This document shows, one piece after another, positions 14,333 through 60,356 of a stretch of DNA of 64,000 nucleotides. Within the stretch, counting starts at the first letter, position 1. Every line of letters starts with the position of its first letter. The notes beneath the pieces are model-generated. The model saw only the letters and a program-made list of their open reading frames with translations, was not told the origin of the DNA and did not search any database. This stretch comes from Syntrophomonadaceae bacterium. Lineage in GTDB: Bacteria; Bacillota; Dethiobacteria; DTU022. The translations under genes and the position numbers were made by a program. The stretch spans positions 1 through 64,000 of the forward strand of contig PWYU01000057.1 in NCBI GenBank assembly GCA_003567725.1, given 5' to 3'.

Positions 14333-15463
14333 TTATTCCTGTTTTTCTCCCATTACCGCATCGATCAGTTCTTGATCGAATGGATGGGCTTCTGCAAGCA
14401 ACTGGCGGTATTTGATGAAATCGATGGTGTCCTGGCCGGTCAGTTTCTTGGTATTAAAAGCATTGAAACCGAGGTAAGCTTCTGTCTGCATATTCGCAGC
14501 CAGCCAGTGACGGCTTGGTAATTTGGCTTGATCCCAGAAATATTTCTTTTTCTGACGGATACCGTCAATAGACATCATCAGGCAGTTGGGGAAAAGGTTG
14601 CTGAGGGTCAAGATTACTTTAGCAACTTCTTGATCTAACAAAGTGAAGTCTGTTTCACCGGATTTAAGCATTTCTTTACCCCTGTCTTTTTGTTCGCGCC
14701 CGCCTATTTCTCCATACACGATTTCTCCATCTTCTACATATTTATCGGTGATTACCAGGGGATTACGGACAAATTCGCCATTTACTTTGAGAACCGGGGC
14801 CACTTTGGAGATCAGGCCCAGGCGAAGCATCTTGTAAGAGCTCCACATTTCACATGAAATACAGCTCCACATGGCCTGTTCCATGGTTAAATAAACGGGA
14901 AGAAAGTCGGTGGAACCGCCTACCGGGGCGGAGCCGTGCTTGGGTCCGGCCTGCCCGAACATAGCCAGGTCGGAAGAAATTGTAATATCACAGGCCATTC
15001 CTATTTCCTGTCCACCTGCAACCCGCATTCCGTTAACGCGGCAGATAACCGGTTTTTTACACATTAAGATGGAATCGACCATTCCATTGAAAAGATCCAT
15101 GTATGCGCCGTATTCGCTGGGGTTGCCACTGTAATATTCGGCATATTCTTTGGTATTGCCGCCGGTGCAAAAAGCCCTGTCTTCAGCTCCGGTAAATACT
15201 ACGGCCACCACGGAACGGTCCATGGAAGCATTGTGCATCCCAGCAATAACTCCTTTGACCATTTCAGTGGTATAAGAGTTAAGTTGTTTGGGGTTGTTCA
15301 ACGTTACCCAGGCTGTATAAAGGCCATCTACTTCTGCACCTGCAGAATCAAGAACCGGTTTTTTTTCATAGATTACGCAGGGAGGTTCTGTGCCGAAATA
15401 ATCATCGCCGTAAAGTTGGTGATCGACTATTCCATCCTGGCGGGGCCATTTATTAAGATCCAT
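14333..15463 (-). CDS. bamA: 6-oxocyclohex-1-ene-1-carbonyl-CoA hydrolase
   Basis: 376 aa; LNNPKQLNSYTTEMVKGVIAGMHNASMDRSVVAVVFTGAEDRAFCTGGNTKEYAEYYSGNP...RVAGGQEIGMACDITISSDLAMFGQAGPKHGSAPVGGSTDFLP is the BamA/Oah signature region. Confidence 0.95.
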   Translation of the reverse strand: MDLNKWPRQDGIVDHQLYGDDYFGTEPPCVIYEKKPVLDSAGAEVDGLYTAWVTLNNPKQLNSYTTEMVKGVIAGMHNASMDRSVVAVVFTGAEDRAFCTGGNTKEYAEYYSGNPSEYGAYMDLFNGMVDSILMCKKPVICRVNGMRVAGGQEIGMACDITISSDLAMFGQAGPKHGSAPVGGSTDFLPVYLTMEQAMWSCISCEMWSSYKMLRLGLISKVAPVLKVNGEFVRNPLVITDKYVEDGEIVYGEIGGREQKDRGKEMLKSGETDFTLLDQEVAKVILTLSNLFPNCLMMSIDGIRQKKKYFWDQAKLPSRHWLAANMQTEAYLGFNAFNTKKLTGQDTIDFIKYRQLLAEAHPFDQELIDAVMGEKQE

Positions 15464-49588: not shown

Positions 49589-51589
49589 GTGTTAAAAATG
49601 AGATATGCTGAAACCGGTTATAACCTGGAAATTGACCTGTCCAGCGGAAACATTGAAAAAATTGAAACCGACCCGGCGATAACGGAACTGCACCTGGGGG
49701 GGCTGGGGACCAATGCCCGGATTTTATGGGACCGGGTCCCACCCGAAACGGCCCCCCTTTCCCCGGAGAACCTGCTCATTTTCGGAACCGGCCTGCTGGC
49801 CGGTACACCGGCGCCCGGCGCCAACCGAACCATAGTAACAACCTATTCACCCCAGACCCTTTTATTGGCCTACTCGATGATGGGAGGCTTTTGGGCCCCT
49901 GAGCTGAAACATGCCGGATACGATAAAGTTATATTCAGCGGCCGTTCGCCCGAACTGGTTTACCTCTGGATCAATAACGACCAGGTGGAAATACGCGACG
50001 CCTCCCACCTGCAGGGTAAGGGCGTGGTGGAAACCGAAGAACTGATCAAACGCGAATTAGAGGACCAGGATATCCAGATTGCCTCCATAGGGCTGGCCGG
50101 AGAAAATACCGTTTATTATGCTTCCATAGAGCACGCCCGTTCCAGCGCCAGCCGGGCCGGAATCGGGGCTGTTATGGGCTCCAAAAATTTAAAGGCGGTA
50201 GCGGTCCGGGGAACAAAAGATATCAATATCGCCCAGCCGAAAAAATTTATCGGTCTGTGCAACGAAGTTCTGGATTATATCCAGTGGCGGGCTGAAAATC
50301 CGGTCAAAAATGTCCCGCCCATTTTAGCGGGGCTCGGTTCACCGCAGGAAATGGCCATCCACGATGAAGCATGGCACACCACGGCCTTCTCCTGGGGCAA
50401 TGCCCGCTACAGGAGGAAGGGTTTCTGGACCGAAGAAGTGGAAGAAGAATGGTCCAATATCCAGGACAGCGCTGTGCAGCGGCTGATCAGCTGCTACAAC
50501 TGCCCCATGAAATGCGGGGCCATCATAGCCTACCCGAGCCTGGAACTTTCAAAGTATATGATGAAATGCTATTCGAAGCTTACTTACGTGATGGGCGCCA
50601 TGGTCGACGACCTTGATTTTGGTTTCAGAATTGCCGGGTTGGCCCAGGGTTACGGGGTAGACTCCTACACCGCCCCGCAGGTAATGGCCTTTGCCATTGA
50701 GCTTTATGAAAACGGCATATTAACCGACGAGGATTTGCCGGATTTCCCCCCTGATAGTGAAGGCCGGTTTTTCTACCTCCTGGAAAAAATTGTCCACCGG
50801 GAAGGAATTGGCGATGTCCTGGCCAACGGTGTTTACTGGGCTGCCCGCCAGATCGGAAAAGGAGCGGAAGCTTACGACAGCAATACCATCAAGAAACACG
50901 AACAGATCCCCATCAAGCTGAGCATGTTAAACCCGATTTTCTTCCTGCTGCACTCGACGGGAGAGAAAATAAATATTACCCAGATTGAAGGCCAGCTGCC
51001 CCAGGCTCCCTTCCCGGAAAAAGAAGACCGGGAAGAGTTTGTCAAGGACTGGATCCAGGCTCCAAGCGAAAATATCAAGGACTTTTTCGTCAAGTGGGAG
51101 CCGCGGGGAGAATACGCCTTCCCCTACTTCCCCGATTTCCAGACCGCCTGCGAGCTGGTTGAATGGCAGGAAACGATGCACTATATCGATGACTCCACCG
51201 GCATCTGCGCCGGGCTGTCATCCTTTCCCATCAAACCGCCTTATCACATCCACAACCTGCCCACCCTGATCTCCGCCGGGTCCGGGCTGGAAGTTGATAA
51301 AGAAAAGCTGTGGAACAAAATTGTCAAAAGAAACCGCTCCCTGCTCAGGGCCATTAACTCCAGGAGGGGCCTGAGGCGAAAAGACGATCGGCCCCCGGAA
51401 GATCACTGGAAGAAGCGGTTCCCCGAACACGAAGCTAAATTACTTGATGAATATTACAAGTTTAAAGGCTGGAACGAGGAAGGAATCCCGACCAGGGAAA
51501 CCCTGAAATCTCTGGACCTGGACTTTGTCGGGGAAGATTTAGAAAAGCGAGGGATATATAACCATGGCCAAAGTGAAAAAGAAAGTTAA
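49589..51589 (+). CDS. bamB: Class II benzoyl-CoA reductase, W-pterin subunit BamB (AOR family)
   Basis: 666 aa AOR-family protein (LGGLGTNARILWDRVPPETAPLSPENLLIFGTGLLAGTPAPGANRT; ASRAGIGAVMGSKNLKAVAVRG), first gene of an operon with bamC-I order. Confidence 0.9.
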   Translation: MLKMRYAETGYNLEIDLSSGNIEKIETDPAITELHLGGLGTNARILWDRVPPETAPLSPENLLIFGTGLLAGTPAPGANRTIVTTYSPQTLLLAYSMMGGFWAPELKHAGYDKVIFSGRSPELVYLWINNDQVEIRDASHLQGKGVVETEELIKRELEDQDIQIASIGLAGENTVYYASIEHARSSASRAGIGAVMGSKNLKAVAVRGTKDINIAQPKKFIGLCNEVLDYIQWRAENPVKNVPPILAGLGSPQEMAIHDEAWHTTAFSWGNARYRRKGFWTEEVEEEWSNIQDSAVQRLISCYNCPMKCGAIIAYPSLELSKYMMKCYSKLTYVMGAMVDDLDFGFRIAGLAQGYGVDSYTAPQVMAFAIELYENGILTDEDLPDFPPDSEGRFFYLLEKIVHREGIGDVLANGVYWAARQIGKGAEAYDSNTIKKHEQIPIKLSMLNPIFFLLHSTGEKINITQIEGQLPQAPFPEKEDREEFVKDWIQAPSENIKDFFVKWEPRGEYAFPYFPDFQTACELVEWQETMHYIDDSTGICAGLSSFPIKPPYHIHNLPTLISAGSGLEVDKEKLWNKIVKRNRSLLRAINSRRGLRRKDDRPPEDHWKKRFPEHEAKLLDEYYKFKGWNEEGIPTRETLKSLDLDFVGEDLEKRGIYNHGQSEKES

Positions 51590-52121
51590 GGTTATCAATA
51601 TTGACCTTGAAAAATGCAACGGTTGCCGGGCCTGCGAAGTAATTTGCTCCGCTTTCCACGCGCCCGAAAAATACAGCTTGAACAACCCGGCCCGGTCCCG
51701 CATCCGTATGATCCGCAAACCGCTGGATGATATTTATCTTCCCGTTTATGCGGGCGAATATACCGCATCCGAATGCATGGGCAGGGACAAGTATGTTATC
51801 GACGGCAGGGAATACGACGAATGCGACTTTTGCCGGGCTTCCTGCCCCTCAAGAGACGCCTTCAAGGAGCCTGATTCCGGCCTGCCCCTTAAGTGCGACA
51901 TGTGTGAAGATGACCCAGCGCAGGAAGAACCCCTTTGTGTTAAATGGTGCTTATCGGACGCCCTCACTTACGAAGAACGGGAAGAGGAAGTGGAAGAGGA
52001 AGAAGAGCAAGCCCAGGATCTAACCCAGGAGGAAATGGAGAAAGGCTTAAAAGCTTTAGCCGATAAGTACGGCCTGGATGAAGTGGCTAACAGCATGGCC
52101 CGGATGTTAAAGAAGGAATAA
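51564..52121 (+). CDS. bamC: BamC-like Fe-S electron transfer subunit
   Basis: CNGCRACEVICSAFHAPEKYSLNNPARSRIRMI, CDFCRASCPSRDAF, CDMCEDDPAQEEPLCVKWC; overlaps bamB end. Confidence 0.88.
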   Translation: MAKVKKKVKVINIDLEKCNGCRACEVICSAFHAPEKYSLNNPARSRIRMIRKPLDDIYLPVYAGEYTASECMGRDKYVIDGREYDECDFCRASCPSRDAFKEPDSGLPLKCDMCEDDPAQEEPLCVKWCLSDALTYEEREEEVEEEEEQAQDLTQEEMEKGLKALADKYGLDEVANSMARMLKKE

Positions 52122-52154: not shown

Positions 52155-53306
52155 GTGGATACTGAAACTCCAATCAAAGAGGTTATTGAGGAAATAAAAG
52201 AATTTGGCGGCGAGGCCGTAAAGTACTGCTACCAGTGCGGAAAATGCGATACCCTGTGCCCCTGGAATAAAGTGATCAATTTTAGTATCCGCAGGCTGAT
52301 CCGGGAAGCGGCTTTCGGGATCCCCGAAATCGAACTGGAAGAAGTGTGGCGCTGCACCACCTGCGGGAAATGCCCCCAGGAATGCCCCAGGGACGTCAAA
52401 CAGATCGACGACGTGGTGGCCATGCGCCGCATTGCCGCCGAATACGGTGTTTCTTCCACCCTGTTAAAACCGGTCCGTTCAGCCAGCGCCAGCCTGGCCG
52501 CGGAAGGCAATCCCTTTGTCCAGGACCGCTCCAAACGGGCCGACTGGGCGGAGGGCCATAATGTCAAACCATTTGACGAAACGATGGAAATTCTATATTT
52601 TCCCTGCTGCTATGTATGCTATGACCAGCGATTGATGGAAATTGCCCGGGCTACAGCCGGGATCCTCAATAAGGCCGGGGTAGAATTCGGCATCCTGGGC
52701 ACCGAGGAAAACTGCTGCGGAGAAAGTATCCGCAAAACAGGCAACGAAGATGTTTTCAAAACCCTGGCCCGGGAAAATATCAAAACTTTTATCGATCACG
52801 GGGTGAAAAAAATTCTTGTCTCTTCGCCGCACTGCTACCACACCTTTAAAAATGAGTACCCCGAGTTCAAGGCCAACTTTGAGGTGGTCCATATCTCGGA
52901 ATATTTAAATGAACTGATCAAAAAAGGCCGCCTTAAAATAAACGGCGAGTATAATAAAAGGGTTGCCTATCATGACCCCTGCTACCTGGGCCGGCACAAC
53001 GGCATTTATGATCCGCCCAGGGAAATATTGCAGGCAATCCCCGGCCTGGAATTTTGCGAGCTTTACGAGGCCCGGGAAGAAAGCCTCTGCTGCGGCATGG
53101 GCGGCGGCAGGATCTGGATCGACACCAAGATGTCGGAGCGCTTTTCCAACCTCCGGCTGGAGCAGGCTATCGAGATTGGGGTCGAGGTGCTGGCCACTGC
53201 CTGCCCTTACTGCGTTGATGCCCTGGAAGAAAGCAGGTCGGGCCTGAATTATGAAGAAACTATTTTGGTTAGAGATATCACTGAAATTATTAATGAATTA
53301 AGCTGA
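52155..53306 (+). CDS. bamD: BamD-like HdrD/HdrBC-type Fe-S subunit
   Basis: CYQCGKCDTLCPWN, CTTCGKCPQECP, CCG-domain motifs (ENCCGESIRK; ESLCCGMGGGRIW). Confidence 0.88.
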   Translation: MDTETPIKEVIEEIKEFGGEAVKYCYQCGKCDTLCPWNKVINFSIRRLIREAAFGIPEIELEEVWRCTTCGKCPQECPRDVKQIDDVVAMRRIAAEYGVSSTLLKPVRSASASLAAEGNPFVQDRSKRADWAEGHNVKPFDETMEILYFPCCYVCYDQRLMEIARATAGILNKAGVEFGILGTEENCCGESIRKTGNEDVFKTLARENIKTFIDHGVKKILVSSPHCYHTFKNEYPEFKANFEVVHISEYLNELIKKGRLKINGEYNKRVAYHDPCYLGRHNGIYDPPREILQAIPGLEFCELYEAREESLCCGMGGGRIWIDTKMSERFSNLRLEQAIEIGVEVLATACPYCVDALEESRSGLNYEETILVRDITEIINELS

Positions 53307-53339: not shown

Positions 53340-56300
53340 TTGGATCAGATGATGGAACTAAAAGGCGAACAGCTGCTTAAAAGTCTTGCCGGCGGTAATT
53401 TCGGAGACGTCATGGTGGTCGGCGGAGGGGTCAGCGGGATCCAGGCTTCCCTGGACCTGGCCGCAGTGGGCTTCAAGGTTTACCTGGTTGACAGGGCTCC
53501 CGCCATCGGGGGCCACATGGCCCAGCTGGATAAAACCTTCCCCACCAATGACTGTTCGATGTGAATACTCTCGCCCAAGCTGGTCGAGGTCGACCGGCAC
53601 ACCAACATCGAAGTCATTTCCTATACTGAAGTTGACAGCGTAGAGGGGGAAGCGGGTAATTTCAGGGTCAGGCTGAGGAAAAAGCCCCGCTATATCCGGG
53701 AAGACAAGTGCACCGGCTGCACCGTGTGCACAGAATACTGCCCGGTCCAGTACCCAGATGAATTTAACCAGGATATTTCGAACAACAAGGCTATCCATAT
53801 CTATTACTCTCAGGCCATACCTTTGATAACTTACATTGATGAAAACTGCCTCTACTTAAAAGAGGGGAAATGCCTGATTTGCGAGGCGGTCTGTCAAAAT
53901 GAAGCGATAGATTTCAGCCAAACTGAAGAAATAATGGAAATTAATGTCGGGGCGGTAATTTTAGCCCCCGGTTATGAAGAATATGATCCCATGATCAGGG
54001 GAGACTATGGAGCCGGAAAGTACGAAAACGTGGTCTCCAGTATGGACTACGAGCGGCTAACCGATTCCACCGGCCCTTACGAGGGGCAGGTCCTGCGCCC
54101 TTCGGACCTGGAGCATCCCCGTAAAGTGGCCTGGATCCAGTGTGTTGGCTCCAGGCAGGTCAACCCGCCGGGAGCCAACAGCTACTGCTCTTCGGTATGC
54201 TGTACTTACACCCAGAAACAGGTCATTTTAACCAAGGAGCATGACCCGGAAACCGAATGCACCGTTTTCCACAACGATATCCGTTCCTACGGCAAAGATT
54301 TTGAAAGGTTTTACCAGAGGGCGGAAGAAATGCCGGGGGTCAGGTTTTTCAGGAGTTATGTGTCAGTGGTCAGAGAAGATCCGGAAACCAAAAACGTGAC
54401 TATAAAATATACCACCCCCGAGGAGGGGGTAAAAGAAGAAGAATTTGACCTGGTGGTTCTGTCAGTAGGCCTGAGCCCGCCGCCGGATGTAGAAGGGCTG
54501 GCTAAAAAGTTCGGGCTCGAATTAAATGACCACGGTTTTTGCAAAACCAACCCGGTCAACCCCATAGAAACATCGCGTCCGGGCTTCTACATCAGCGGGG
54601 CATTCCAGGGCCCGCTCGATATCCCCGAATCGGTAGTTACCGCCAGCGGCGCCGGATCACAGTGCGGCGAACTGCTAAATTACCGCAAAGGCGACCTGTC
54701 CGTGGAAAGGGTCTACCCGCCGGAAAAAGACGTTTCCCTGGAAGAACCGCGGATCGGAGTCTTTGTCTGTCACTGCGGGGCCAATATCGGCCGAGTGGTT
54801 GATGTCCCTTCAAATGTCGAGTACGCATTAACCCTGCCCAATGTTGTATATGCCCAGGAACAGCTTTTTTCCTGCGCCACCAACAGTGCCGAAGAAATAA
54901 CCGAAAAAATCAAGGAAGAAAATCTCAACCGGGTTATCGTCGCCGCCTGTTCCCCGAGAACCCTCGAGATGCTTTTCCGGGACACCCTGAGGGAAGCGGG
55001 CATCAACCAGTACTATTACGAGATGGCCAATATCAGGGAACATTGCTCCTGGGTCCATCCCAAGCAAAAAGATGAAGCCACTCAAAAAGCGAAAGATATC
55101 ATCAGGATGGCCGTGGCAAGGACCCGCTACCTGGAACCGCTGATGGAGATCGATCTGCCGGTGGACAAAAGGGCCCTGGTAGTTGGGGCCGGCGTAGCCG
55201 GGATGACCTCTGCCCTGTCCATTGCCGAACACGGCCACCATGTCTACCTGGTGGAAAAAGAACCCGTCCTCGGGGGAACGGCCAGGAAAGTTTATGACAC
55301 CCTGGAAGGCCTTGATGTCCAGGAATTCCTGCGCGATCTGATCGAAAGAGTCTACCGGCATCCCCTGATCCATGTTTATACCGGGGCCGAGATTACCGGG
55401 ACTGCCGGTTACATCGGCAACTTTGCGACCAAAGTCCAGTCCGGCCGGGGCAGCGTCGAGATAAAACACGGGGCCACGGTGATCGCAACCGGGGCTGACG
55501 TTTACACTCCCACCGAGTATCTCTACGGTGAAGACGAGCGGGTTATGACCCAGCTGGAACTGGAAGAAAAAATTACCACCGGAGACGAAATAGTGGCCCA
55601 TGCAGAAAACGTGGTCATGATCCAGTGCGTGGGCTGCAGAAACGAGGATCGCAATTACTGCAGCCGGATCTGCTGCAACGAATCAGTCAAAAATGCCCTG
55701 ACTTTAAAAGAAAAGAACCCCGATCAGGATGTCTACATCCTTTTCAGGGATATGAGAACTTACGGTTACAACGAAGACTATTACCGGGAAGCCGCCGACA
55801 AAGGGGTCGTATTTATCCGCTATGAACCCGGACAGGAACCGCAGCTTGAACCGGCCGAAGAAGAAGGGCGCCCGGTTTTAAAAGTGACCCTGCCCGATTA
55901 CGTGCTGCAAAAAAATATCGAAATAGATGCCGACCTCATCGCCCTGGCCGCTGCGGTTATTCCTTCCGCCGGGACCAGGAAAATAGAAAATCTATTCAAG
56001 GTGGGCCTGAACCCGGATGGCTTTTTCAAGGAAGCGCATGTCAAGTTAAGGCCGGTGGAGTTCGCCGCTGAAGGAGTCTATCTGTGCGGTATAGCCCACT
56101 ACCCCAAACTGATTACAGAAACTGTCAGCCAGGCTTTCGGCGCCGCCGGCAGGGTCCTGGCCCTGCTTTCAAACGACATTGTCACCGCTTCCGGGGCGAT
56201 ATGCGAAGTGGAAGAAAACAAATGTGTTACCTGCGGGGCCTGCATCGATGTCTGCGCCTACGGGGCCATAGCATTCCAGGAAACAGAAACCGGCCTTACG

Positions 56301-56465
56301 GCGGCCGTAAACCCGGTCCTGTGCAAAGGAGACGGTCTCTGCAATGCCGTCTGCCCAACAGGTGCAATCCAGTTAAAACACTTTACCGATGAGGAGCTGC
56401 TCAGTCAAATCGATGCGGCCGCTCCCGAAGAAGAAAGCGCAGATAAAAAAGAAGCGGCCGTTTAA
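53340..56465 (+). CDS. bamE: BamE-like HdrA-type flavoprotein, predicted selenoprotein (Sec at TGA 53562-53564)
   Basis: Track splits it into 53340-53564 and 53724-56465, same frame with no other stop; joined reads [52 protein letters not shown][U][23 protein letters not shown]; candidate SECIS hairpin CTGGTC-gaggtc-GACCGG at 53580-53597. Confidence 0.92.
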
Positions 56466-56518
56466 AAACAGATAAACGGCGGTAAAGGTGAATATACTAA
56501 ACCAGGAGGTGGCGGCGG

Positions 56519-57283
56519 ATGAGTGAAAAGCACACATTCAAACCGAAAGTAATTGGCTTCGTATGCCAGTGGTGAGGATATGGAGCTGCGGACTTGGCTG
56601 GAGTTTCCAGACTACAATATACAACTGAAATCAGGCTGATTCGGGTCATGTGCAGCGGGCGGATCGATCTGTCCCACCTGTTCAGGGCCTTTTCGAACGG
56701 GATGGACGGCGTGTTCATCGGCGGCTGTCACTTAAAAGAGTGCAACTATGTTACCCAGGGTAATTACCATGCCCTGAACCTGGTCTTATTGAGCAAGCGG
56801 ATTATGAAACATATCGGGCTGAACCCCGACCGCTTGAGGATAGAATTTATGTCTTCCGGCGAAGGGAACCTGTTTGCCCGGGCTGTGGATGATTTTGTAA
56901 AAACGGTCAGGGAAGCGGGGCCGCTCGGCATCAGTGAAGGGCTGGACCGGGAAACCCTAAAGCTTAATATAAAAGCTGTTTCCAAACTGATCCCTTATAT
57001 CAGGCTGGTAGAAAGCGAAAGGTTAAGGGGCCATTTTGAAACCCAGGATCAGTTTAAAGCCTTTTATAACAGCGAGGAATTTGAAAGACTTTTTAAAGAG
57101 TTGATCGCCGATAAACTGGCCATCAGCCAGATCATGTCCCTTTTAAAGGAAAAACCCTTATCCACCGGGGAAATTTCGGAAATCCTGGGCCTTAGTCCAT
57201 CCGATATATCAAAACACCTGAAGAATTCGGCCAAGCAGGGATTAGTCAGGTATGAAGAAAACCAGAAACGCTTCGCTTTATGA
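56519..57283 (+). CDS. bamF: BamF-like MvhD-type subunit with C-terminal winged-helix-like domain, predicted selenoprotein (Sec at TGA 56573-56575)
   Basis: GGAGGTGG RBS then MSEKHTFKPKVIGFVCQW[U]GYGAADLAGVSRLQYTTEIRLIRVMCSGRIDLSHLFRAFSNGMDGVFIGGCHLKECNY; hairpin CTGGA-GTT-TCCAG at 56598-56610; track only reports 56594-57283. Confidence 0.92.
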
Positions 57284-57348
57284 GGGATTAGTTGAAATTA
57301 TGTTGATCAGGGCATGATCAGGATCAAGGAGGAAATCATATAGAGGCC

Positions 57349-57801
57349 ATGGATATCAATAGAATTGATCAAATCATAGACCGGCATAACTGTGAAGCCA
57401 GTTCCTTAATCCAGGTTTTACTGGAAATTCAAAGCGAGAACCACTGGCTGCCCAAACAGGTCCTGGAGAGGATCAGCGAAAGGTTAGAGGTGCCCTTATC
57501 CCGGATCCAGCATATTGCCACTTTTTACAAAGCCTTTAGCCTTGTGCCCAAAGGCCGTAATGAAATTCACATCTGCATGGGTACTGCCTGCCATGTTCGC
57601 GGAGCCCAGAACATTCTCAGCGCCGTGGAAGACCTGACCGGCATAAAACCCGGCGAAACAGACCTGGATTTAAAATTCAGCCTGGAGACCGTAAACTGCC
57701 TGGGATGCTGCGCTCTGGGGCCGGTGATGGATGTTAATGGGCAGATTCACGGTAATCTCTCGCCGGCTGATACCGAAGAAGCGATAAAAAAATATGAGTG
57801 A
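57349..57801 (+). CDS. bamG: BamG-like NuoE-type [2Fe-2S] subunit
   Basis: HIATFYKAFSLVPKGRNEIHICMGTACHVRGAQNIL, ETVNCLGCCALGPVMDVNG. Confidence 0.9.
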   Translation: MDINRIDQIIDRHNCEASSLIQVLLEIQSENHWLPKQVLERISERLEVPLSRIQHIATFYKAFSLVPKGRNEIHICMGTACHVRGAQNILSAVEDLTGIKPGETDLDLKFSLETVNCLGCCALGPVMDVNGQIHGNLSPADTEEAIKKYE

Positions 57802-57810
57802 GGGAAATCT

Positions 57811-59739
57811 ATGCCACGGATAAATTCACCTGATGAGCTGGAAAAAGTCAGAAATGATATATTATCCCAAAAAGATTCAAATAAACCCTGTATTTCTATA
57901 TGCGCCGGCACCGGTTGTCTCGCCTGTGGGGCAGCCGAAGTAATTGCCGCCTTTAAAGAAGAACTAAATAAACAGGGTCTGGAGGTCGATATCGATACCA
58001 AAGGGACCGGTTGCCCCGGTTTTTGCGAAAGAGGCCCCATCCTGGTCATTTATCCTGAAGAGATCTGTTATCTCCAGGTTAAGCCTGAAGATGTACCTGA
58101 AATCATTGCTCAGACCATTAAAGAGAAAAAAGTTTTAGAGCGCCTTCTTTATCTTGATCCAACTACAAATGAAAGTGCAACCAGGGAATCAGAAATTCCT
58201 TTTTACAATAATCAGGAACGAATTATTATCAGTAATAATATTAAAATTGATTCTAAGCGCATTGAGGATTATCTGGCTATCGGTGGTTACTCTGCTTTGG
58301 CGAAAACTCTTTTCCAGATGACTCCTGAGCAGGTGCTGGAAGAAGTTAAAAAAACCAATCTGAGGGGTAGAGGAGGTGGCGGTTTTCCGGCAGCATTAAA
58401 GTGGGAAGGATCACGGAATGCCCCTGATCCTGAAAAATATGTAATTGTCAATGCCGACGAAGGTGATCCAGGAGCCTTCATGGACAGAGCATTGCTTGAA
58501 GGAAACCCGCATTTAATCCTTGAGGGCTTAATGATTGGTGCTTATACTATCGGCGCCCGTAAAGGTTATATTTATGTCCGGCAGGAATACCCCCTGGCAG
58601 TAGAAAATGTGACCATCGCCATCAGGCAGGCTGAAGAATACGGTTTTTTGGGAAATAATATTCTTGGTTCCGGTTTTGATTTTACCGTCGAGGTTCATCA
58701 GGGCGCAGGCGCATTTGTCTGCGGTGAATCAAGTGCCTTGATGACCGCACTGGAAGGCAAGACAGGGGAACCCAGGCCGAAATATATTCGCTCCAACATC
58801 AGGGGCCTGTGGGAAAAACCAACCGTTCTAAACAATGTTGAAACCTGGGCCAACGTGCCTTTGATCATCAATAATGGCGCCGACTGGTTTAACAGTCATG
58901 GAACAGATAGTAGCAAGGGAACAAAAATCTTTTCCCTGGTAGGTAAAATCAATAATACCGGCCTCGTAGAAATTCCGATGGGCATGACCCTGCGGGATAT
59001 TATTTATAAGGTCGGCGGTGGTATTCCGGAAAATAAAAAATTTAAAGCTGTCCAGACCGGTGGTCCCTCCGGTGGATGTCTGCCCGACAGTATGTTGGAC
59101 TTAGAGGTTAGTTTCGATGAGCTGATCAACGCCGGATCAATGATGGGCTCCGGCGGGATGATTGTTATGGATGAGGATACCTGCATGGTCGATGTGGCCA
59201 GGTACTTTTTAGATTTCCTAACCGATGAATCCTGCGGCAAATGCGTGCCCTGCCGCGAGGGCGTCAAGCAAATGTTGAAAATCCTGACCAATATTACAAA
59301 AGGCCAAGGCAAAGAAGGCGACCTTGAACTTTTAGAACAGCTGAGCGAGGTAGTCCAGGAAATATCCCTTTGCGCCCTGGGGCAGACTGCTCCCAATCCA
59401 TTCCTCAGCACTTTGAAATATTTCAGAGAGGAATACGAAGCGCATATCGAGGGGAAAAGATGCCCGGCTCTCTACTGTAAAGAATTAATTTCCTACTATA
59501 TTGACCCGGAAAAATGCCAGGCCTGCATGGCCTGCCTTAAAAAATGCCCTTCAGATGCCATTATAGGCGGTAAGAAAACCATCCATATCATTGATCAGGA
59601 TAAATGCACCAAATGCAATACCTGTATCGATGTTTGCCCACCCCGCTTTAAGGCGGTGAGAAAAATTTCCGGCGAGCCCGTCCCGCCTCCTATTCCTGAA
59701 GAAGAAAGAACCATTACCAGGGGGAGTAAAGAAAAATGA
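57811..59739 (+). CDS. bamH: BamH-like NuoF-type subunit with C-terminal 2x[4Fe-4S]
   Basis: NLRGRGGGGFPAALKWEGSRNAPDPEKYVIVNADEGDPGAFMDRALLEGNPH, SCGKCVPCREGVKQML, CQACMACLKKCPSDAI. Confidence 0.93.
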   Translation: MPRINSPDELEKVRNDILSQKDSNKPCISICAGTGCLACGAAEVIAAFKEELNKQGLEVDIDTKGTGCPGFCERGPILVIYPEEICYLQVKPEDVPEIIAQTIKEKKVLERLLYLDPTTNESATRESEIPFYNNQERIIISNNIKIDSKRIEDYLAIGGYSALAKTLFQMTPEQVLEEVKKTNLRGRGGGGFPAALKWEGSRNAPDPEKYVIVNADEGDPGAFMDRALLEGNPHLILEGLMIGAYTIGARKGYIYVRQEYPLAVENVTIAIRQAEEYGFLGNNILGSGFDFTVEVHQGAGAFVCGESSALMTALEGKTGEPRPKYIRSNIRGLWEKPTVLNNVETWANVPLIINNGADWFNSHGTDSSKGTKIFSLVGKINNTGLVEIPMGMTLRDIIYKVGGGIPENKKFKAVQTGGPSGGCLPDSMLDLEVSFDELINAGSMMGSGGMIVMDEDTCMVDVARYFLDFLTDESCGKCVPCREGVKQMLKILTNITKGQGKEGDLELLEQLSEVVQEISLCALGQTAPNPFLSTLKYFREEYEAHIEGKRCPALYCKELISYYIDPEKCQACMACLKKCPSDAIIGGKKTIHIIDQDKCTKCNTCIDVCPPRFKAVRKISGEPVPPPIPEEERTITRGSKEK

Positions 59740-60356
59740 GCAAAATCCTGTTAAAAATTGACGGAAAAGAAATCGAAGCAGAAGAAGGCATGACTCTCCT
59801 GGAGGCAGCCCGGGACGGGGGTATTGAAATCCCGGCCCTCTGTCACCACGAAAAACTCGAACCCTACGGAGCCTGCCGGATCTGCACGGTGGAAGCAGAA
59901 AAAAACGGCCGTTCGAAGCTTGTCGTTTCCTGCGTTTACCCGGTCGAAAAAGGGCTGAACGTAACAACCAGGTCCGAAAAAATTGACCGGGTCCGCAAAA
60001 CAATCCTGGAACTGCTTTTATCCCATGCCCCCGATTCTGAAAAACTCCTGGAGCTGGCCGCAGAATACGGTGCCAACAAAGATCGCTTCGAGAAGGAACC
60101 TTCATTTTGCATTCACTGCGGCCTTTGCGTGCGCTACTGCGCCGAAATAAAGGGGAAATTTGCGGTTGGCTTTATCAACCGGGGATCCAGGCGCGAGATA
60201 AACTTTATCCCGGAACTGGCCGCTACCGAGTGCTGGAATTGCAAGGAATGCTTTCCCCTGTGCCCGACTTCGGCCCTGCAGGCTGCCTATGTATTTACAG
60301 AAGCCCAGTTTTCCGAAAATCCTGCTTTCGAAGCCAATTCAGGCAAGAAAAATTAA
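59736..60356 (+). CDS. bamI: BamI-like NuoG N-terminal-type ferredoxin subunit
   Basis: EEGMTLLEAARDGGIEIPALCHHEKLEPYGACRICTVE, FCIHCGLCVRYC, CWNCKECFPLCP; overlaps bamH. Confidence 0.9.
   Translation: MSKILLKIDGKEIEAEEGMTLLEAARDGGIEIPALCHHEKLEPYGACRICTVEAEKNGRSKLVVSCVYPVEKGLNVTTRSEKIDRVRKTILELLLSHAPDSEKLLELAAEYGANKDRFEKEPSFCIHCGLCVRYCAEIKGKFAVGFINRGSRREINFIPELAATECWNCKECFPLCPTSALQAAYVFTEAQFSENPAFEANSGKKN

Follow-up and report, generated by a model that had tools for sequence, protein, structure and literature searches.

The window, a 64,000-nucleotide stretch of a contig from a Syntrophomonadaceae bacterium, carries a complete bamBCDEFGHI operon together with bamA, the marker gene of the same pathway, on the opposite strand. 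Its relevant features are as follows:

14351..15430, minus strand: bamA, 6-oxocyclohex-1-ene-1-carbonyl-CoA hydrolase, pathway marker (TIGR03200, 562 bits, cut-off 464)
49589..51589, plus strand: bamB, catalytic subunit of a tungsten benzoyl-CoA reductase (4z3w_A, 1037.8 bits, residues 4-659)
51564..52121, plus strand: bamC, Fe-S subunit (evidence includes operon position)
52155..53306, plus strand: bamD, HdrCB/GlpC-like subunit
53340..56465, plus strand: bamE, HdrA-type flavoprotein, with a candidate TTG start at 53340; the called start, 53724, is too late
53562..53564, plus strand: predicted bamE selenocysteine (Sec) codon TGA, motif CSMU (TGA or TGC/TGT in all BamE homologues examined)
53579..53598, plus strand: putative bamE SECIS, GCTGGTCGAGGTCGACCGGC, 8-bp stem with a GGTC-type loop (-14.6 kcal/mol)
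56506..56513 (approximate, just 5' of the ATG), plus strand: bamF ribosome binding site (RBS) GGAGGTGG, seen in the sequence and also 5' of the ATG in homologous loci L020-L022
56519..57283, plus strand: bamF, predicted MvhD/FlpD-domain selenoprotein of 254 aa with a C-terminal ArsR-type winged helix (PF02662, PF01022, 5odc_D)
56573..56575, plus strand: predicted bamF Sec codon TGA, residue 19, motif C-Q-W-U (TGA in about 40 homologues, otherwise TGC/TGT)
56598..56610, plus strand: core of the putative bamF SECIS hairpin, CTGG-A-GU-U-(U)-CCAG (covariation, invariant GU loop, reduced synonymous variation)
57349..57801, plus strand: bamG, NuoE/HoxE-like
57811..59739, plus strand: bamH, NuoF-like
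59736..60356, plus strand: bamI, HoxU/NuoG-like

BamB is homologous to the structurally characterized 4z3w and is encoded alongside BamC-I, which identifies the enzyme as a class II benzoyl-CoA reductase. The full operon, the strength of the BamB match and the occurrence of BamA in the window all bear out the initial annotation's naming of the gene at 56519 as bamF, and BamA further supports the predicted benzoyl-CoA reductase pathway. BamF matches PF02662 (FlpD/MvhD) over residues 11-134 with 150 bits, well above the curated cut-off of 22.3, and its C terminus matches the ArsR-type winged helix PF01022 over residues 204-245 (41.7 bits). The closest PDB entry is 5odc_D, an MvhD, and the nearest solved relatives, MvhD subunits from the Hdr-Mvh complexes of methanogens, carry CNWC where BamF has CQWU. 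These matches to solved MvhD structures settle the predicted fold of BamF.

The bamF ATG at 56519 is preceded by AGGAGGTGGCGGCGG and opens a reading frame of MSEKHTFKPKVIGFVCQW-TGA-GYGAADLAGVSRLQY that ends at a TGA stop codon, 57281-57283. The ORF that had been called, 56594-57283, begins at a TTG lying 3' of the in-frame UGA and thereby loses the CxxC/U motif. When the sequence was re-read, the start, frame and TGA position given in the initial annotation all proved correct, as did its remark that the called ORF lacks the redox motif. One could instead take the UGA as a true stop, with translation restarting at TTG 56594 to give a short BamF without the motif. This matches the output of the ORF caller, and the TTG has a GGAG 8 nt in front of it. 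However, the TTG codon is not conserved among homologues, where CTG, TTG, TTA, ATG or CTA is found and mostly not TTG, and the GGAG is part of a Gly codon whose third base is free to vary. The protein sequence 5' of the UGA, by contrast, is conserved in homologues and has its own ATG and a strong RBS. We therefore rejected the internal start, and a restart of this kind is very improbable.

Homologues support the reading of UGA as Sec. Close homologues were surveyed in 71 genomes belonging to the order and 399 belonging to the phylum, and TGA occurred at exactly codon 19 in about 40 distinct bamF genes from many genera (39 distinct or 40, by slightly different filters). The remaining homologues in this survey, seven close Cys-type genes among them, carry TGC or TGT at the same codon and no other residue. 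A test set beforehand, that this column should hold only Cys or Sec, was thus passed without exception in the homologue alignment that the initial annotation had proposed, and its equation of the TGA with the second Cys of the CxxC (CNWC) agrees with these codons. In a tree of 46 rows, a single branch divides the Sec from the Cys forms (support 92, not starred). For the view that the UGA is a sequencing error, or a Cys codon mutated in a pseudogene, nothing speaks beyond the single-base difference of TGA from TGC or TGT. It is refuted by the homologues, in which some 40 distinct genes of many genera have this TGA in an otherwise open frame, and its probability is negligible.

Two further observations were made among the homologues. 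The Cys-type BamF proteins L054 (CNWCC...DLCGVSR) and L072 (DLCGVSR) carry additional cysteines, absent from the Sec forms, close to the motif. Separately, on the contigs of loci L055 (G064:C44) and L056 (G052:C8) a Sec-type bamF occurs twice, the copies being separated by about 4 kb, which suggests that part of the bam operon was duplicated in tandem; the two copies on G052:C8 have identical scores.

The genome also encodes the machinery for Sec decoding, whose absence the initial annotation had named as evidence against its reading. The genes selA, selB and selD lie side by side on one contig (C36), and a tRNA-Sec with anticodon tca (UCA) is encoded on another (C53). The selD gene (G000:C36:33974-34903, L017) carries an in-frame TGA of its own, in the motif SAGUAAK. 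A genetic code such as 4 or 25, with UGA read as Trp or Gly, could likewise account for read-through in bamF, bamE and selD, but UGA also terminates bamF itself, for which we rejected it; homologues have Cys at the column rather than Trp or Gly, and the Sec machinery is complete, so that reassignment has next to no likelihood.

We next consider the hairpin 3' of the bamF UGA, CTGGAGTTTCCAG at 56598-56610. The initial annotation had placed it correctly, 22 nt downstream of the TGA, but its five pairs closing a GTT loop are replaced here by a better-fitting fold: CTGG pairs with CCAG, one U bulges out, and the loop, reduced to the two bases GU, is closed by A-U (or C-G). With the T of the UGA as column 1, columns 26-29 pair with columns 35-38 in nearly all Sec-type sequences, one stem pair being broken in 2 of 40, and the loop GU (columns 31-32) is invariant among all 40. 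The columns flanking the loop, 30 and 33, are A-U in 29 sequences, C-G in 11 and mixed in none (Fisher p 4e-10, relatedness ignored), and the tree requires at least six coupled switches. Both columns are third codon positions, of Gly28 (GGA/GGC) and Val29 (GTT/GTG); their coupling is therefore not accounted for at the protein level, and the Cys-type genes do not show it. Four-fold degenerate sites 3' of the UGA are also less diverse than those elsewhere in bamF (mean 0.34 vs 0.58).

Taken as a single sequence, the bamF hairpin is unexceptional. Under simple bSECIS rules, a hairpin at least as good follows 16% of the window's plus-strand TGA triplets; the folding energy of the hairpin region, -6.9 kcal/mol, falls just short of the published limit of -7.5; and single-sequence minimum-energy folds vary, often preferring other pairings. 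A search of 53500-57300 with all Rfam families gave no SECIS match. Rfam SECIS_1 had no match in the whole genome and equally none in control genomes including E. coli, so this genome-wide result is not counted against a SECIS. The hairpin falls within 16-37 nt 3' of the UGA with a G early in its small loop, and the putative element agrees with the bacterial SECIS model described in PMC13188914, in which a closing pair bounds a small loop that has a G early on. It is the comparative evidence, rather than folding energy, that makes this predicted SECIS convincing.

The adjacent bamE is a second predicted selenoprotein gene shortened by ORF calling, here with a textbook SECIS. Its frame is open 5' of the called start and through the TGA at 53562-53564 (motif DCSMU), the start is probably the TTG at 53340, and only 0.3% of the window's TGA triplets score as well as its SECIS does. 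In all 14 loci with a Sec-type BamE, the window included, the adjacent BamF is also Sec-type. Five loci are Cys/Cys, and two, L096/L070 (G158:C70) and L097/L071 (G447:C14), combine a Cys-type BamE with a Sec-type BamF. A Sec-type BamE beside a Cys-type BamF was not found among the loci compared (14 U/U, 5 C/C, 2 C/U). The loci in this sample are few and related, so a dependence of Sec in BamE on Sec in BamF is only suggested.

Together, these observations make it almost certain that UGA 19 of bamF is decoded, under the direction of a SECIS, as Sec in the MvhD-type subunit of a class II (tungsten, ATP-independent) benzoyl-CoA reductase. The decoding itself is what we infer from the machinery and the comparative evidence. 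SelB and tRNA-Sec would decode the codon, directed by the hairpin about 22 nt 3', and Sec19 would take the place of the second Cys in the N-terminal CxxC of MvhD. Class II reductases have been described as bifurcating 1-MDa complexes, Bam[(BC)2DEFGHI]2 (PMC11971306). Within such a complex BamF is most likely the link through which electrons move between BamE, the HdrA-like flavoprotein, and the BamGHI module, which resembles NADH dehydrogenase. Selenium may tune or speed the BamF redox site, and with a UGA-encoded Sec in BamE as well, electron transfer from one subunit to the other may cross two selenium sites. More speculatively, and on balance doubtfully, the BamE-BamF junction in this lineage could be a paired-selenium electron relay adapted to the very low potential at which the ring is reduced, with Sec in BamF perhaps a precondition for Sec in BamE.

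If the bamF UGA is read as Sec, ordinary gene calling cuts off the start of the gene, and the redox motif of a core Bam subunit is lost in this way across many genomes. Two shortened gene models, bamF and bamE, are corrected here in an operon for anaerobic aromatic degradation. The naturally occurring U/U, C/U and C/C pairs of BamE and BamF offer material for testing the contribution of selenium to electron transfer in ring reduction.

Sec-containing relatives of both subunits are known. FrhD/MvhD/VhuD (PF02662), with a CxxU motif, is a verified selenoprotein family, and HdrA, also CxxU, is likewise listed as a Sec protein in a 2026 review (PMC13188914). Sec FrhD has been listed for Geobacter metallireducens, Syntrophus, Syntrophomonas, Desulfotomaculum and others (PMC1794560), Sec forms of MvhD and FrhD are also known from Syntrophobacter, and Sec MvhD and HdrA proteins have been reported in Desulfobacterium autotrophicum. 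Window BamF has the domain and CxxU motif of this family but differs from it in its extra C-terminal winged helix and in lying in a bam operon, not a hydrogenase/Hdr operon. Gmet_2083, the BamF of the G. metallireducens class II benzoyl-CoA reductase, has the same architecture of delta subunit plus HTH and the same operon order (PMC1924859), and the Sec FrhD listed for that organism (PMC1794560) is most likely this bamF. Compared with the G. metallireducens system, the window differs in that bamE is also a predicted Sec gene. G. metallireducens belongs to a phylum other than that of the window organism. Sec in the Bam enzyme is also said to have been reported by Peters in 2004, Wischgoll in 2005 and Huwiler in 2019. 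Desulfococcus multivorans has a Sec-containing HdrA-type BamE in its Bam complex, as the window is predicted to have; the Sec proteins listed for it include BamE and an MvhD encoded elsewhere in the genome, but not BamF (PMC5109826). Sec in MvhD/FrhD, HdrA and BamE is thus already published, and window bamF is one more case: its selenocysteine is known in type, and the use of the finding lies in annotation.
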